Assembly: GCF_000196175.1 (NCBI RefSeq)
Contig: NC_005363.1
Span: forward strand, 2,604,001 to 2,668,000
Direction of reading: 5' to 3'
Length of the DNA: 64,000 nt
From: Bdellovibrio bacteriovorus HD100
GTDB taxonomy: Bacteria; Bdellovibrionota; Bdellovibrionia; Bdellovibrionales; Bdellovibrionaceae
Under the pieces are notes generated by a model, which was not told where the DNA came from, ran no database searches, and was given only the letters and a program-made list of their open reading frames with translations. How positions within the stretch are numbered: the first letter of the stretch is position 1; every line of letters begins with the position of its first letter. Shown here piece after piece: positions 52,033 to 59,611 of the stretch. The translations under genes and the position numbers were made by a program.

Positions 52033-54552
52033 CTACAGCTTCTTCAAATAGATTTGCATCTTATCCTGCCCAGGCACCGTAATATCGGCACGGCAGTTTT
52101 TCGTGGCCGTCAGCGTCTGCGCCTGAACATAAAAGGTCAAATTCGTCTGGTCCGTGGCATAAGAAAACAACCCGGTCATTTGATAGATTTCACTTTCATA
52201 GGCCCCTGCCATGCCCGAGAAGTTTGTGCCGTCCCAAAGACGATAACGACAGTAAACCCCGGCATCCACCGGATACATCGAAAAAATTAATACAGTCAGC
52301 TCATAATCTCCCGCTGGAAGATTTGCGAAACGAATGCCCGGAATCTTGCCTTCCGTTGGAGCCGAAGCCAGTCCCGTCACCGTGGCCGTGTTACATGCCA
52401 CCACGTTTGAAAAAGAGGCAAACGAAGTATTGGCATGCTCCCACTGGCACCCCGCTTTTCCCAGCATCGTCAAAGACCCCATCAGGGTGCTTGTCCCCGG
52501 GATGTTCACGTTACAGATAATGCCAGTTCCGGTACCATCCGAAGTACACATCTTGTTCGCTGTCATACCACCCACACCCAAGACCGGGACATTGCCTGAG
52601 GCACTCCCCGTTGTCGCCACAGCCGCAGTTCCCAAGCCCAAAGCTGTGCGGGCATTGGCCGCTGTCGCAGCCCCCGTACCGCCGTTTGCAATTGGTAAAA
52701 CTGAAGTTCCCACAACATCCGCAGAAGCCAAATCAATAGCACCGAAGGTCGGCGCACCGCCACCTGCTGGCACACGTAAAACCTGATTGGCCGTCCCCGC
52801 TGACGTCGTCACTGGCGAAGCCCCCGCACCACCGCCCAAAACAACACCGTTTTGAACGAGAGCTGCCGAAGATGCCATCGTCGTTCCCGAGTTATAATAT
52901 GGAATCCCGCCAGAAGTTCCCGCTGTCAAACCTGTACCGCCCTTCGTGACTGGTATGGTCGGCAGCACAGAAGTCCCCACGGTCCCTGTCGCGATATTGC
53001 TGGCATTGATATTCGTCAAAGCAGAACCATCCACAGCGGGCAATTTCGAGTCCGCCCCCAGCTTCACAATCTGATTTGCGCCGGTCCCCGTATTCACACT
53101 GGCTAATCCGGATGCCACCGTCATCCCCGAGACGTCCGCACTGGTATCAAAGCGCACAAGACCTTTTGCGGCGTAAGAGGCATCTCCCGGCGTAGTCCCG
53201 CTGGAGTCGACCGAGCAATCCCAGGTTTTCGCCGTGTTATTCCATTTTAAAATCTGCCCGTCAGCGCAGGCAGAGGTGCTGGCCGCCACCGTCAGTTTTG
53301 CAGCTCCATCATAGTAACGAAGCGCTTTCAAGTCCGAATTGTACCAGGAAAGACCTTTGTGACCGGCATTCAGCACCAGCGCATCTTCCTGCGCTTGCGT
53401 GAAATTACCCAGCAACAAAGTCTTCGTCGCACCCATGGTGATGTGGCCGACAGAAAGAACATCCTCGCCACCCATATTCAGATCGCCCGTCATCGTACCG
53501 CCGTTCAAAGGCAATTTGGGATTGGCGGTGTCCGCCGCACTGACCCGAGCATCCACCGCGGTGTTAAAGTCAGACATCTGACTGGCCGTGATGCTGATGT
53601 TAGAGCAGGCAAAAGTGTCCGAAACTGAATTCCATATTGAAACCTGACTGCTGGTACACTGCTGCAGCAGACTCATTTGCAGGCGATCATCCAGCGCCGT
53701 CTGCAGGCCGGCAATCTGGGAAATCGGCAAACTGCCGACACTTAAAACGCCAGCGCCATTGACCGACAGACCTGAACCCACTTGGACAACACCGGTGCTG
53801 GCCGCTGTCGCCACCGGCACAGCACCCCCTGTATCAGTCACACACGAGAAACTGGTTCCATTGGATTTTAAAACCTCACCCGCAGCACAAGTCGGCAGCG
53901 CCGATTTTGCAAAGGCCTGAACGGTCGGATCATTTTCGTTGTTAGGAACTTCCGTCGCAAGATCTGCGATCTTTGCGTAACTTGCGGCTGAGACTCCCCC
54001 CAACTTGTCGGCATCCCGGGCCTTGGCGGCCTCTTGTGCGACCATGGCATAAGGAACTGTACCGATCTGATGGTAAGGCAAGATAGCGCGAGGACCACCA
54101 GTACCGGTATCAAAGACGATTTTCACTTTGCGGATGTCACCGGCGGCGGGAGTGTAAGAGCCCGAGCAGACAGTGGACTCAGCCCCCTGATGCTGAGAGG
54201 TCAACCCATTAGCAACAGCCGAATCATTGGAAAAGACCTTCAGAATATTTTCCCGTGTCTGTTCCTGCCCGGCGGTGGCATAAACGTTCATCGCGGCAGT
54301 TCCCGCACCAATCGTCAGCGCAAAGCTGCCATCAGATGCAGAAAGATCTTTGTTCAGATGTTGCTCTTCATACAAAAGACAGTTGTCGGGGCTTAACACT
54401 TTGACGGTAAAATCCACACTGCCCGCATTCAACGGAAGCTCGGAAGCCACATCCAGAATGCGCCCGGAAATTTGAATGCCCTTAGGTCCACTGGCCCAAG
54501 CACCTGTGACAGAGATACTGAATGTCAAAATCGCCAGAAGCTGCTTCCCCAT
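52033..54552 (-). CDS. MAT-type fibre protein (phage-tail-fibre-like), copy 1
   Basis: 839 residues from ATG 54552 (GAGGAA upstream; GTG 54564 possible). Signal peptide MGKQLLAILTFSISVTGAWA. N-terminal module (about 25-215: ISGRILDVASELPLNAGSVD, FTVKVLSPDNCLLYEE) and NDPTVQAFAKSALPTCAAG closely resemble the fibre at 57728. The middle holds tail-fibre repeats: LPLNGGTMTGDLNMGG, VTKGGTGLTAG, NGGTGAATAANARTALGLG. The last 150 residues are a unique beta domain (YCRYRLWDGTNFSGMAG), presumably the receptor-binding tip. This is the architecture of Bdellovibrio mosaic adhesive trimeric fibres used in prey recognition. Preceded by a small lipoprotein gene. Confidence 0.85.
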   Translation of the reverse strand: MGKQLLAILTFSISVTGAWASGPKGIQISGRILDVASELPLNAGSVDFTVKVLSPDNCLLYEEQHLNKDLSASDGSFALTIGAGTAAMNVYATAGQEQTRENILKVFSNDSAVANGLTSQHQGAESTVCSGSYTPAAGDIRKVKIVFDTGTGGPRAILPYHQIGTVPYAMVAQEAAKARDADKLGGVSAASYAKIADLATEVPNNENDPTVQAFAKSALPTCAAGEVLKSNGTSFSCVTDTGGAVPVATAASTGVVQVGSGLSVNGAGVLSVGSLPISQIAGLQTALDDRLQMSLLQQCTSSQVSIWNSVSDTFACSNISITASQMSDFNTAVDARVSAADTANPKLPLNGGTMTGDLNMGGEDVLSVGHITMGATKTLLLGNFTQAQEDALVLNAGHKGLSWYNSDLKALRYYDGAAKLTVAASTSACADGQILKWNNTAKTWDCSVDSSGTTPGDASYAAKGLVRFDTSADVSGMTVASGLASVNTGTGANQIVKLGADSKLPAVDGSALTNINASNIATGTVGTSVLPTIPVTKGGTGLTAGTSGGIPYYNSGTTMASSAALVQNGVVLGGGAGASPVTTSAGTANQVLRVPAGGGAPTFGAIDLASADVVGTSVLPIANGGTGAATAANARTALGLGTAAVATTGSASGNVPVLGVGGMTANKMCTSDGTGTGIICNVNIPGTSTLMGSLTMLGKAGCQWEHANTSFASFSNVVACNTATVTGLASAPTEGKIPGIRFANLPAGDYELTVLIFSMYPVDAGVYCRYRLWDGTNFSGMAGAYESEIYQMTGLFSYATDQTNLTFYVQAQTLTATKNCRADITVPGQDKMQIYLKKL

Positions 54553-54560
54553 AACGTTCC

Positions 54561-54842
54561 TCACATGACTTGAAAGCGTATGTTTATTTCCGCCTGATAG
54601 ACTCCGTCTTCGGTATAGGATTTGTCTGTCGTGGTGACTTCACCCACCACGCCTTCCACCCGGTATTGACCGGATTCATCCTTGGCGCTGATTTGTCGAG
54701 AAGGAGTAATAGCCATCTTGCCGGGAACAGAACGCAGAGGAACTGGCGCATCCTCTAGCGAAACAATGGACGCCTCCATCGAGCAAGCCGACAGAAGACT
54801 CCACAGTATCAAGGTGAGACAAGTTTTTACAATAACGCGCAT
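54561..54842 (-). CDS. Small lipoprotein upstream of fibre gene 1
   Basis: 93 residues. Lipobox LLSAC (16-20), then a Pro/Ser-rich linker and one short beta domain (GQYRVEGVVGEVTTTDKSY; YQAEINIRFQVM). Its stop is 8 bases before the fibre ATG, so the two are co-translated. The gene at 57396 has the same size and the same position before the other fibre gene, with a similar lipobox-linker-beta layout, although residue identity is low. Likely an anchor or assembly partner; inference. Confidence 0.75.
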   Translation of the reverse strand: MRVIVKTCLTLILWSLLSACSMEASIVSLEDAPVPLRSVPGKMAITPSRQISAKDESGQYRVEGVVGEVTTTDKSYTEDGVYQAEINIRFQVM

Positions 54843-54928
54843 TTGGAAAATCTATCGGATTTTCCAAAGAAAGCCTCAACTGTATTACGTTTAATTAATC
54901 CCGGATCGATCAGGCGCGGGCCAAGGGC

Positions 54929-55378
54929 CTACTGACACAAAGATTCTAACACCTTCCAACCCGGCAAGACTGCAGGCTCGGTCGGAGACTCTTCCGCGGT
55001 GGGTTCGTACTGATTGATCAGTTCGTATTCGTACTTCGCACAGTCTTTCTTTTTGAACTTTTTTTCAGCAGGGAGGGATTCCAGAACGGACACCAGCAAA
55101 TCCATGTGTGCCTCGTCCTGCGCCCCTTGCGGCACGCTATTGTCCCTCAAAGATCGAATCTGAAGGACAATGCGGTTCATGGCCCGGTAGCGCTCTTTGT
55201 TGTTCTTGGCTTTGGAGACTTCTTTTTCCAGCATCTCGGTATAGGATTCCACCTGCTGGCGCACACTGCGATTGCTGCGAATGGCGACCTCGCCGGCCCC
55301 CAGCCCTTCCGGTGGGATAATGGCATGAGCGTCCAGACTGCAGACCATAACTGCTGACAAGACCCAGATCGTTTTCAT
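54929..55378 (-). CDS. Small secreted helical protein, paralogue of 55472-55891
   Basis: 149 residues from ATG 55378 (TGGAGG upstream). Signal peptide of about 20 residues ending in DAHA. The helical region KEVSKAKNNKERYRAMNRIV, LRDN and SLPAEKKFKKKDCAKYEYEL lines up with KELKKEKDVTKRYDVFLKSF-type, LRSKN and FLPEKKEFQASKCKDYKKEV of the next gene, including one central and one C-terminal Cys (C at the end, SLCQ versus DLICK). No known family. Same strand and order as the fibre and lipoprotein genes. Confidence 0.72.
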   Translation of the reverse strand: MKTIWVLSAVMVCSLDAHAIIPPEGLGAGEVAIRSNRSVRQQVESYTEMLEKEVSKAKNNKERYRAMNRIVLQIRSLRDNSVPQGAQDEAHMDLLVSVLESLPAEKKFKKKDCAKYEYELINQYEPTAEESPTEPAVLPGWKVLESLCQ

Positions 55379-55471
55379 GCGCACCTCCAGCCCCTTTTAT
55401 CTTATGATTCGAGATGTTTTTCAATCTCTAGCAGGGCTGAAGGCACCATATTAAGTGATTTTTTAATCTGC

Positions 55472-55891
55472 TTACTTACAGATCAGATCAACGACATTGA
55501 AAGCCTTGTCGACAAAGGGCTCTTTTTGATCCTTTGCATAGGATTTCATCATGTCATTCACTTCCTTTTTATAGTCCTTGCATTTGGACGCCTGGAATTC
55601 TTTCTTCTCTGGCAGGAACGCCAATGAATCCATGAACAGACTCATATTGATTTCTTTCTCTTCGGCCTGGCGAGGATTTTTTGATCGCAACTCGCCCATT
55701 TCCCGGAAGCTTTTCAGGAAGACATCGTAACGCTTGGTCACGTCCTTTTCCTTCTTCAACTCCCCTTCAAGTTTCGTGATCTTTTTGTTGAACTCAGCAA
55801 AAACGTCCACTTTGGCCGCTTGTGCCACATTCACAGAAAGACCGGTCATCAGTACCGCAATTACAGTTCTAAGAATTTGTTTTCTGTGCAT
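55472..55891 (-). CDS. Small secreted helical protein, paralogue of 54929-55378
   Basis: 139 residues. Signal peptide ends near VAQAAK (about residue 25). Charged helices with heptad character (FAEFNKKITKLEGELKKEKD), central CKDYKKEVNDMM and a C-terminal Cys (VVDLICK). Paralogous to the following gene (see there). Its first 31 bases overlap the end of the SLT-type gene, so it is expressed with it. Confidence 0.72.
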   Translation of the reverse strand: MHRKQILRTVIAVLMTGLSVNVAQAAKVDVFAEFNKKITKLEGELKKEKDVTKRYDVFLKSFREMGELRSKNPRQAEEKEINMSLFMDSLAFLPEKKEFQASKCKDYKKEVNDMMKSYAKDQKEPFVDKAFNVVDLICK

Positions 55892-57294
55892 GTGCCAGCT
55901 CCTAGTGCTTTGTCCAATACGCGTGCCTGTGCTTTGACTGCCGGGATATAAAGAGAATCTTTATATGCAAACAGATATTCCGCCAGCGTCAAAGGGGTCT
56001 TTTTGCCAATGGCTTTCACACGGGCTTCCCCGGTTTTAGCCTTCATCTGCGGTCCTGTCGGCCAGTAATTCATGTCAAAGTCAGCCTTTGTGATCGGATA
56101 CTTTTTCAGTGTCGCGATACGATATTTCAGCCACTCTCGATAGAAGACCGGAGGACGACCCGGACCCGAGTTGTAAGCCATTACAAAGATCATTTCTTTG
56201 ATAGACTCTTTGTCGAAGCTGTCGATACCAGCGTCTTTCATCAGCTGTTCGACACCCTTGAAATCCGGATTCTTGGCATCCGTGGAACGATTCCACGCAC
56301 CGTTGGAATTTCTTTTGGTCGCATGATAGAAAATACCGTAATAAACCATACTTCGCAGCGGATTCGGCGGTGTTGAAATCGCATGGCAGCGCTGAGAGTC
56401 CTCGGACAGAATTTCTGCGGCTTTGGCGGGAACTGCTCCCGGAATGCTGCGCAGTCTTTGGCAGGATTCTTTGGTGCTGTTGTTGATACGGCCTTTGAAG
56501 TTTTCAAAGTTCTGAGCCACATCCGCCAACGCCTGATCCGTGAACTGACCGATACCACCGTCATTCACCAGACCAAACGCATTCACATGCAGACCGCTTT
56601 CATTGGAAAGTTTTGGCGCAATGAATTTTGCCGGCACTTCCAGACAGTCCGCCACATCAATCAAAGAGTTATAAACCAGATTCACATAGTTTTCAGTCAC
56701 GCAGGCCTTGTGACCATAACGCTCTGGAGTCCCTGTGTCCTTGTCACACTTGGCGAACAACCAAGGGTCTTTTTTATAGTCTTTCACGTCTTTGACTTCA
56801 CGCTGATTTGTCGGAGGGGCCGTGCGGTTGAACTCAATGTCCGCCTCACGCTTTTCTTCCGGCGTCAGGGCGCGGTCTTTCCAGAAGCGCTTCATGATAT
56901 AAAGAGCACATTTGCGAGGCAGAATTTCAGCCGTCTTGGAATAGTCACGTCCCCCAGCGAACAACCCTTTCGGGTCCGCTTTTTTGAAGGCTTCAAACTG
57001 CTTTTGCAGGTAGTTGCGATCCGGGCCGCAGTTTTCCGGTTTTTCGAACGTGATCATGTTTTCCACATCACCAAAATTACAGGTGCAGGTCATGTCGTCT
57101 TTGGCCGCCGTCGTGCCAATTCCTGTCAGGGATTTGTTCACGGTCTGCAGTTTTTTAATCACCTGCTCTTCAGCGCTGGAGGCATAATCGCCAGAGCCCG
57201 CAGTTGGACGAGTGACTTCATACCAGCCAAACGCAGTGAATGAAACCAGGCAACAGAATGTGTAAAACCAAAAGGATGTCCTTGAACGTTGCAC
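55861..57294 (-). CDS. SLT-type (lysozyme-fold) putative transglycosylase
   Basis: 477 residues from GTG 57294, which has GAGGAG at a proper distance; ATG 57300 (479 residues) directly abuts that site. N-terminal membrane or signal segment (FWFYTFCCLVSFTAFGWY). A Cys-rich region (TCTCNFGD) follows. The core has the lysozyme-like pattern of lytic transglycosylases: LSNESGLHVNAFGLVNDGG (Glu-Ser), GIGQFTDQALADV in place of GLMQ, and MAYNSGPGRPPVF in place of YNAG. It probably cleaves peptidoglycan. It overlaps a small secreted-protein gene and is divergent from the second fibre pair. Confidence 0.75.
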   Translation of the reverse strand: MQRSRTSFWFYTFCCLVSFTAFGWYEVTRPTAGSGDYASSAEEQVIKKLQTVNKSLTGIGTTAAKDDMTCTCNFGDVENMITFEKPENCGPDRNYLQKQFEAFKKADPKGLFAGGRDYSKTAEILPRKCALYIMKRFWKDRALTPEEKREADIEFNRTAPPTNQREVKDVKDYKKDPWLFAKCDKDTGTPERYGHKACVTENYVNLVYNSLIDVADCLEVPAKFIAPKLSNESGLHVNAFGLVNDGGIGQFTDQALADVAQNFENFKGRINNSTKESCQRLRSIPGAVPAKAAEILSEDSQRCHAISTPPNPLRSMVYYGIFYHATKRNSNGAWNRSTDAKNPDFKGVEQLMKDAGIDSFDKESIKEMIFVMAYNSGPGRPPVFYREWLKYRIATLKKYPITKADFDMNYWPTGPQMKAKTGEARVKAIGKKTPLTLAEYLFAYKDSLYIPAVKAQARVLDKALGAGTCTENKFLEL

Positions 57295-57395
57295 GATCAT
57301 CTCCTCTTTCCATATTTATCAATGTCTTATCTGTTTAAATGCCCGAAAACTGAATGCACTAAAGTCCAGTTCCGTTCATCCGATAAGTATTAAGA

Positions 57396-57674
57396 ATGCT
57401 TAAACTGTCTTTTAGTCTTTTGAGTGCGTTGCTGGTCTTAGGGGGATGTTCTGACGTCACCCCGCAGGTCAGCTTTTTAAAAGGGCAAACACCCTCTCCG
57501 AGCACCGGCAGCCCCACAGGGGGCTCATTTATAAAGACAGATCTGGCAAGTCATGGGGTCTCCACATCCCCGGACGGATTCAAACTGGAAGCCACTGTTT
57601 CGAAAGAAGACAGAAGCACCCAACTTGTCTCATCTCAGGGCTACCTTCTAATTCTTAATGAAGATACCGACTAA
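57396..57674 (+). CDS. Small lipoprotein upstream of fibre gene 2
   Basis: 92 residues. Lipobox VLGGC (about residue 18) then TPQVSFLKGQTPSPS, a Pro/Ser/Gly linker and a short C-terminal beta element (GFKLEATVSKEDRST, GYLLILNE). Located 53 bases before the fibre gene on the same strand. Counterpart of 54561-54842. Confidence 0.72.
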   Translation: MLKLSFSLLSALLVLGGCSDVTPQVSFLKGQTPSPSTGSPTGGSFIKTDLASHGVSTSPDGFKLEATVSKEDRSTQLVSSQGYLLILNEDTD

Positions 57675-57727
57675 ATTACGGTCAAAATCCTAAGGATTTA
57701 TCTAAATAACTCCGAATATATAGTGGA

Positions 57728-59611
57728 ATGAAACCAAAGCACGTTCGTTATCCTTTGTTGATAATCTCGCTTTTGTTTGCCGTCGCCGCAAAGGCGGAAG
57801 GCTATCATGTTTCAGGGAAGATCCTTCGCCCTGACGGCACTCCTGTGGAGTCCAACGCAGTCAGTTTTAATCTGGAAGTCCTATCCCCCGACACCACCTG
57901 CGTGGTGTACCAGGAAACCATCAACAATCAGGATTTGAGCAGCTCCAAAGGCCGCTTCAACCTGGTATTGGGTTCCGGCACACGGGTTTATTCCAGTGGT
58001 GACGTGCCGCTGGAAAAGGTCTTTGCCAACAGTGCGGCTTTGTCTTGTAAAGGCGGTGCCAACTACAATCCGGCATCCAATGACGAAAGATCTTTGCGCA
58101 TTTCTTTCTATGATGGATCCAGCTGGCAAAGTTTCTCCCCGCAAAAACTGAAAGCCGTTCCATTTGCAACAGAATCCAAAAACGCCCAGTCCGCCGCCAA
58201 ACTGGGCGAATACAGCGCCACCAGTTTGTTGCGTGTCGATGGCGGCACAGCTCCGGCGATGTCACCGGCGCAGATGACGGCCTTGCTCTCAGTGGTGGCA
58301 AACTACGACCAGTTCCTGACGGCGGAAAATGATCCGACTGTACAGGGTTTTGCAAAGTCCACTCTGCCCACGTGTGCCGCTGGGTACACCTTGACCTCCA
58401 ACGGTACGAATCTGGCCTGCGTGCAGGATCAGACCGGTGCGACCTTTACTTTACCAACGGGCGCTAACGGTCAGGTTCTGAAACACGATGGGACTCAATG
58501 GAAAGCCAGTGCAATGGCTATCACGGACATCAGCAATCTGAATGCAGAACTAAGCAGTAAAGTAAATAAAGCCGCGTTTCCAAGTTGTTCTGCTGGAGAA
58601 ACGCTCCACTACAATTCCGTCACGGACACCTGGAACTGTCAGGCCCTTTCACTGGCCTTGGCCGGCGATGTGACCGGGACAGCTTCCGCGAATCAAGTGA
58701 CTCGACTGCGCGGGGTCAACATCTCGTCTACGGCTCCTACCGTCAATCAGGTGCTTCGCTATAATGGGACTGACTGGACTCCAGCGACCATTCCAACGGG
58801 CACCGGCACAGTGACGTCCATCGCCGCAGGCACTGGCCTGAGCGGAGGAACCATCACTTCAACCGGCACGATTTCGTTGGCGAACACCAGCGTAACTCCG
58901 GGAACCTATGGCAGCGCCACTCAAATTCCGTCCTTCAGTGTTGATGCCCAGGGACGCCTGACTGCCGCCGGTGGCACCACCGTCAATATCATCAGCGGCG
59001 TCACCAGCGCCAATGCCTATATCACTGTCGCTAACAGCAGCACCGCTCCGGTGATCACGGCCAACGTGGGCACCGCCGCCAACACTTTGGCGGCCGGAAA
59101 CGATGTGCGCTTCACAGATGCTCGTACACCAGCCGGGGCTGCCGGTGGGGATCTGAGCGGAACTTATCCAAATCCAACAATTTCCAAAATCCAGGGTAAA
59201 ACCGTGAACGTAGCCGCTGGATATTTTGACGGTGGATCTTTGATTTATGACTCTGCAACTTCAGCGTGGAAAACAGCCGCGCCTTGTGACTCGGGATGGA
59301 CCTTGATCAACAAGGGGGATCCGTTCTGCGCAAAACAGCAATCTGTCACAGGGACCAACTTCGCGACTTCCATGACCCAGTGTCTGAACAATGGCGGCAA
59401 GCTGTGTGACCTGCAAGAGGCCGTTGGTATGTGCCAAACAGGATTCATCCCCAGCAACACAACTCTTTGGATCAGCCAGCTGGCGGACAATTCCAGTGCC
59501 CATGTCATCAATTGCACCAGTGGATCCTGGTCTGCGGGTTTCTATGGCTTTGGTGTCACCGTGGATGGATCCAATCCGATTCTTCCTTACTGCTGTAAGG
59601 GCCGCCGCTAA
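57728..59611 (+). CDS. MAT-type fibre protein (phage-tail-fibre-like), copy 2
   Basis: 627 residues. Signal peptide MKPKHVRYPLLIISLLFAVAAKA. The N-terminal module (VSGKILRPDGTPVESNAVSF, NLEVLSPDTTCVVYQE) and NDPTVQGFAKSTLPTCAAG match copy 1. The middle has tail-fibre elements (ITDISNLNAELSSKV, GTGTVTSIAAGTGLSGG, GGDLSGTYPNPTISK). The last 110 residues are a Cys-rich domain (CDSGWTLINKGDPFC; MTQCLNNGGKLCDLQEAVG; YCCKGRR) of C-type-lectin-like or FGE-like look, unrelated to the tip of copy 1. Fits a mosaic adhesive fibre with a different ligand. Its end is 8 bases from the convergent gene. Confidence 0.85.
   Translation: MKPKHVRYPLLIISLLFAVAAKAEGYHVSGKILRPDGTPVESNAVSFNLEVLSPDTTCVVYQETINNQDLSSSKGRFNLVLGSGTRVYSSGDVPLEKVFANSAALSCKGGANYNPASNDERSLRISFYDGSSWQSFSPQKLKAVPFATESKNAQSAAKLGEYSATSLLRVDGGTAPAMSPAQMTALLSVVANYDQFLTAENDPTVQGFAKSTLPTCAAGYTLTSNGTNLACVQDQTGATFTLPTGANGQVLKHDGTQWKASAMAITDISNLNAELSSKVNKAAFPSCSAGETLHYNSVTDTWNCQALSLALAGDVTGTASANQVTRLRGVNISSTAPTVNQVLRYNGTDWTPATIPTGTGTVTSIAAGTGLSGGTITSTGTISLANTSVTPGTYGSATQIPSFSVDAQGRLTAAGGTTVNIISGVTSANAYITVANSSTAPVITANVGTAANTLAAGNDVRFTDARTPAGAAGGDLSGTYPNPTISKIQGKTVNVAAGYFDGGSLIYDSATSAWKTAAPCDSGWTLINKGDPFCAKQQSVTGTNFATSMTQCLNNGGKLCDLQEAVGMCQTGFIPSNTTLWISQLADNSSAHVINCTSGSWSAGFYGFGVTVDGSNPILPYCCKGRR

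Follow-up and report, generated by a model that had tools for sequence, protein, structure and literature searches.

Small lipoprotein genes stand directly before a particular class of the surface fibres of Bdellovibrio bacteriovorus HD100, the mosaic adhesive trimers (MATs), and sequence comparisons across related genomes indicate that this is a real, conserved and class-specific partnership of the lipoproteins with the fibre bases. The starting point was a 64,000-nucleotide stretch of HD100 DNA (contig NC_005363.1, positions 2,604,001 to 2,668,000; hereafter the window), which holds two such pairs on opposite strands, Bd2735-Bd2734 and Bd2739-Bd2740 (Table 1). The best reading, to which we assign a probability of about 0.6, is that the lipoproteins are cognate partners that would bind the MAT base, either as anchors or as assembly factors. 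They are specific, genetically linked candidates for what the invariant MAT base binds on the predator surface. If true, this would explain how one base presents many interchangeable tips, and would establish a superfamily of lipoproteins that neither Pfam nor NCBIfam contains.

The two fibres are identified as Bd2734 and Bd2740 because their lengths (843 and 627 residues) agree with the MAT paper (PMC10769870) and both match the NCBIfam model NF053851 (Bdello_MAT_N), with scores of 140 and 177, respectively, against a cut-off of 60 bits. In both, the match corresponds to a conserved β-rich N-terminal domain that follows the signal peptide, and a Pfam scan of the two proteins detected no autotransporter (YadA-like) domain. 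The same paper gives the number of MATs in HD100 as 21, and reports for both fibres surface display as trimers and a small predation defect on deletion (PMC10769870). It presumes that the base domain binds some surface element, stated as yet to be identified, and the word "lipoprotein" is absent from its main text, as distinct from its supplements (Caulton et al. 2024, PMC10769870). A literature search likewise found no paper naming these lipoprotein genes.

The original prediction described the two fibre and two lipoprotein open reading frames (ORFs) of the window, their lipoboxes, and gaps of 8 bases before Bd2734 (ATG at 54552) and 53 bases before Bd2740, and all of these stand as given; with an alternative GTG start at 54564, Bd2734 and its lipoprotein gene would share 4 bases. 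The locus tags Bd2735 and Bd2739 were assigned to the lipoproteins by counting genes. Both are real genes under purifying selection, because their orthologues from two related genomes give ratios of nonsynonymous to synonymous substitution (dN/dS) of about 0.07-0.30. Each has a predicted type II signal peptide, in which LLSAC or LGGC follows a hydrophobic stretch and is conserved in the orthologues, and the +2 residue is Ser in both.

The two lipoproteins were said to share little identity, and BLASTP indeed finds no similarity between them. Direct similarity is accordingly rejected, and they are connected only via intermediate profiles. One such profile (A7), built without either protein, matches Bd2735 at E=2.8e-7 and also recovers Bd2739-type relatives in two other genomes (G010 and G008). 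Both are members of a superfamily of small lipoproteins that has not been described before, and for which Pfam, NCBIfam and PHROGs contain no known family. Its layout comprises a lipobox, a Pro/Ser linker and then two C-terminal strand motifs about 20 residues apart; the lipobox and linker had been recognized correctly, but the "one short beta domain" first proposed is better described as this repeated motif at the extreme C-terminus. The mature proteins are mostly 60-85 residues long, with a longer insert in some classes, one of which has a weak Big_1 match. The motifs are of the GYxV form, and in most classes lie about 19-22 residues apart, their distance from the C-terminus being almost constant. 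Two strict GYxV-type motifs are present in the last 60 residues of 38 of 84 lipoproteins, as opposed to 6 in shuffled sequences (maximum 14). At +2, 57 of the 84 have Ser and 2 have Asp; by the rules of E. coli, Ser at this position would point to the outer membrane. The signal peptide of the MAT fibres themselves is of the ordinary kind, and a lipobox is almost never seen in them. A search of 231 MAT ORFs for lipoproteins naturally fused to fibres, or for fibres that carry a lipobox of their own, gave four weak candidates, none of which convinces.

A profile built from 25 diverse base domains recovers 21 MATs in HD100, equal to the published number. Six have a lipoprotein gene directly upstream: Bd2734, Bd2740, Bd3182, one matching Bd2439 in approximate size and last residue, and two MATs of 1959 and 1661 residues. 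Bd3182 (922 residues, with the S74 match from residue 782 as published) overlaps its lipoprotein gene by 4 bases. For a seventh, Bd2872, a 210-residue lipoprotein is encoded divergently with one gene between, an arrangement kept in G034, G043, G053 and G055; the same divergent lipoprotein occurs in G042 beside a Bd2872-like MAT. The divergent lipoproteins of Bd2872-like MATs, of about 210 residues, end in the same C-terminal motifs, and the gene between contains Cys (L367:1127-1759, minus strand, equal to HD100 2780126-2780758; L398). The remaining 14 of 21 have a TYQGRI-type base and no lipoprotein in cis, and on this count a universal pairing for all MATs is rejected. The broader proposal that MAT fibres generally follow a lipoprotein gene fails as well, with 15 of 21 lacking one immediately upstream, an outcome named beforehand as speaking against it.

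For the wider survey, genomes were searched by profile and sampled by region. Lipoprotein profile matches in 66 genomes of the family lie mostly directly upstream of MAT ORFs, and a reverse census scored 231 MAT loci preceded by 380 or more bases of sequence, a set whose overall rate is inflated by loci brought in through the lipoprotein searches. Linkage is thus bidirectional, the MAT profile leading to an upstream lipoprotein and the lipoprotein profile to a downstream MAT, which counts in favor of a cognate partnership. In the ten fully sampled genomes of the genus Bdellovibrio, a cis lipoprotein is present at 2 of 69 TYQGRI loci versus 27 of 37 non-TYQGRI loci, and three more of the latter have a divergent lipoprotein. 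In 15 fully sampled genomes of other genera the corresponding figures are 0 of 14 TYQGR/TYQAK loci versus 29 of 64 others, and some of the MATs without a lipoprotein there are perhaps explained by tandem MATs sharing one. Before counting, eight lipobox hits were discarded as false on visual inspection (L015, L275, L063, L310, L308, L121, L225 and L076), seven positives rest on the profile only, and one HD100 locus was counted under G006, the domain DNA being identical. Among 84 pairs the commonest spacing is an overlap of 4 bases, and 78 either overlap or are at most 60 bases apart, with distances taken to the furthest upstream start codon in frame. A chance placement of common lipoprotein genes beside the fibres has a background to draw on, as the permissive lipobox test applied to the fibre genes is also passed upstream of 3 of 41 non-fibre genes of the window (about 7%, one being an internal ORF of a fibre), but the pairing is found again at far higher rates across many genomes, with homologous lipoproteins, which makes chance extremely improbable. 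In other families of the order (L392 and L393), MATs are also preceded by a longer, Big-like lipoprotein, that of L392 having two GYKV motifs at its C-terminus.

The presence of a lipoprotein goes with the base of the fibre and not with its tip, because the positive MATs of HD100 bear S74 tips (Bd3182 and the 1661-residue MAT), TNF-like tips and C-type-lectin tips. A tip-specific cap or chaperone is disfavored on the same ground, and the "cap" role entertained in the original prediction is dropped; its idea of a conserved unit, in which an anchor or assembly factor is specific to the fibre, is upheld by recurrence in many genomes, translational coupling and correlated divergence. On a tree of base domains the lipoprotein label changes 28 times, whereas shuffles average 72 and never go below 61. 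Furthermore, lipoprotein and base-domain distances are correlated across 49 non-redundant pairs (Mantel r = 0.72, 0 of 2000 permutations). Whether a lipoprotein is present depends on the class of the N-terminal domain, and the type of lipoprotein goes with the type of N-domain.

A further lipoprotein of the superfamily, this one a non-cis member, is encoded outside the window, at HD100 3191019-3191369 (L371:11520-11870, plus strand), right behind two TYQGRI MATs in tandem. It also precedes a conserved non-MAT gene family, "VDVRRNITL", an order seen in many genomes. Lipoproteins of this type are found at E<1e-30 in 20 genomes of the genus, and 3 of the 4 genomes without one appear to lack TYQGRI MATs; the complete genome G043 has many TYQGRI MATs and no detectable copy. 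It is possible that this protein is a common trans partner of the TYQGRI class, a hypothesis that we do not claim. Its position before a non-MAT family would also suit the view that the lipoproteins are independent surface proteins, such as prey-contact or envelope factors, which are co-transcribed with the fibres, share their timing and do not bind them. This appears improbable given that presence depends on N-domain class and that distances correlate beyond permutation; neighbours without a relation to the fibre should not track the base domain while the tips vary.

A possible mode of contact comes from structure prediction at a locus of another genome (L174), where the lipoprotein and the MAT lie in one frame, so that reading the stop codon as Ser yields a single chain with both. 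AlphaFold2 models of this fused chain and of the lipoprotein alone, the latter with the rows for the lipoprotein taken from the same set, were compared by predicted local distance difference test (pLDDT). In the fused model the base domain has a pLDDT of about 90 and lipoprotein residues 31-50 about 69, while alone the same residues reach about 44 and no residue exceeds 70. The N-domain has no solved relatives by sequence, and by fold only middling immunoglobulin (Ig)-like matches with Z below 8. The Ig-like PDB domains (VIA-align) align from about residue 37-41 of the fused model, where the lipoprotein strand starts, as judged from alignment ranges only. The fused model is suggestive only, with the lipoprotein strand placed as if replacing the first strand of an Ig-like fold.

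Under the preferred reading of the lipoproteins as cognate base-binding partners, the lipoprotein would travel to the outer membrane and reach the trimeric fibre base through its Pro/Ser tether, and the C-terminal strand motifs would bind the N-terminal domain, thereby holding the fibre at the surface and/or nucleating its assembly. In the most speculative step, drawn from the one fused model, motif 1 would dock as a donated edge strand completing the Ig-like base domain. A bolder version is also conceivable, though we consider it unlikely as a whole: outer-membrane lipoproteins would hold MATs by strand donation to an incomplete Ig-like base, with one lipoprotein per base class and the TYQGRI class sharing the one beside its tandem cluster, so that tip-swapped fibres plug into a few lipid-anchored sockets.

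Several observations weigh against the base-binding reading. As many as 14 of the 21 HD100 MATs have no nearby lipoprotein of their own, and in the other genera one is present for only 29 of 64 non-TYQGRI MATs. Any co-inherited neighbouring genes should show correlated divergence, and the outer-membrane sorting rules are borrowed from E. coli. The folding evidence comes from one monomeric cognate fusion, read from pLDDT and alignment ranges; the folded pair is that of L174 (motif AITYHGRI) rather than Bd2739-Bd2740; and the fused chain uses the fibre signal peptide as a linker, by which proximity in cis may force the contact.

A further alternative is that the lipoproteins are periplasmic assembly or trimerization chaperones, which would aid the fibre in crossing or folding and stand outside the finished surface structure. 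Its precedent is SadB of Salmonella, a small trimeric lipoprotein that improves the display of the trimeric adhesin SadA and aids SadA biogenesis; the sadB gene directly precedes that of SadA, with a gap of 44 bp (Grin et al. 2013, PMC3953254). SadB is an inner-membrane protein (Asp at +2) with a MATH-like trimer domain, and its partner SadA belongs to the type Vc autotransporters (PMC3953254). The earlier statement that no such partner had been described was thus too broad. Translational coupling is equally in keeping with an anchor and with a chaperone. However, the +2 residues of the lipoproteins described above and the strong correspondence between lipoprotein type and N-domain type, which suggests specific binding at the base, both argue against a chaperone. 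Additionally, the lipoprotein profiles A9 and A4 gave no significant match to the PDB sequences, which should include the SadB structure, though sequence alone can miss relatives. On balance a SadB-like role seems doubtful, if still worth entertaining.

The region between the two pairs (minus strand) encodes a 479-residue secreted protein (55861-57300) with ESGLHVNAFGLVNDGGIGQF, by eye like a lytic transglycosylase motif; a Pfam scan up to E = 1 gives no match to this protein. Beside it lie two neighbouring small secreted proteins of like design (54929-55384 and 55472-55891, minus strand), with a Lys-rich middle and a Cys near the end, which are possibly paralogues.

Table 1. The two lipoprotein-fibre pairs and their elements, in window positions
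Feature	Position	Strand	Basis and remarks
MAT fibre Bd2734	52033..54552	-	ORF; Bdello_MAT_N E=5e-41; PMC10769870; 843 residues counted from GTG at 54564; published TNF-like tip
Bd2734 N-terminal base domain, motif GIQISGRI	53968..54519	-	Bdello_MAT_N, residues 16-199 of the 843-residue ORF; alignment A1
Lipoprotein 1 (Bd2735), cognate of Bd2734	54561..54842	-	93 residues; lipobox LLSAC, conserved in G006 and G034; dN/dS about 0.07-0.30
Lipoprotein 1, predicted lipidated Cys20 codon	54783..54785	-	Sequence
Lipoprotein 1, strand motif 1, GQYRVEGVV	54645..54671	-	Sequence; alignment with other lipoproteins
Lipoprotein 1, strand motif 2, GVYQAEINI	54579..54605	-	Sequence; alignment with other lipoproteins
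Lipoprotein 2 (Bd2739), cognate of Bd2740	57396..57674	+	92 residues; lipobox LGGC, conserved in G006, G034, G055, G043, G053 and G037; dN/dS about 0.1
Lipoprotein 2, predicted lipidated Cys18 codon	57447..57449	+	Sequence
Lipoprotein 2, strand motif 1, GFKLEATV	57576..57599	+	Sequence
Lipoprotein 2, strand motif 2, GYLLILN	57639..57659	+	Sequence
MAT fibre Bd2740	57728..59611	+	ORF; Bdello_MAT_N E=3.5e-52; PMC10769870; 627 residues; published C-type-lectin tip
Bd2740 N-terminal base domain, motif GYHVSGKI	57761..58237	+	Bdello_MAT_N, residues 12-170

Among known systems, donor-strand complementation in fimbriae (chaperone-usher pili and Porphyromonas FimA/Mfa) fills an incomplete Ig-like domain with a strand of another protein. 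The likeness lies in the proposed completion of an Ig-like domain by such a strand, whereas the donor suggested here by one fused prediction would be a membrane lipoprotein at the fibre base. Phage tail-fibre assembly chaperones are small, non-lipoprotein helpers encoded beside trimeric fibre genes, and a small gene adjoins a trimeric fibre gene here too, but the candidate helpers are lipoproteins that go with the base-domain class. Both fibres of the window are published members of the MAT superfamily (NCBIfam NF053851; PMC10769870). The nearest known analogue is the SadB/SadA pair, in which a small lipoprotein gene likewise directly precedes that of a trimeric surface adhesin across a short gap. 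The partners here are MATs rather than type Vc autotransporters, and the lipoproteins are shorter than SadB and mostly have Ser at +2, the inner-membrane retention signal Asp being confined to the two cases given above.
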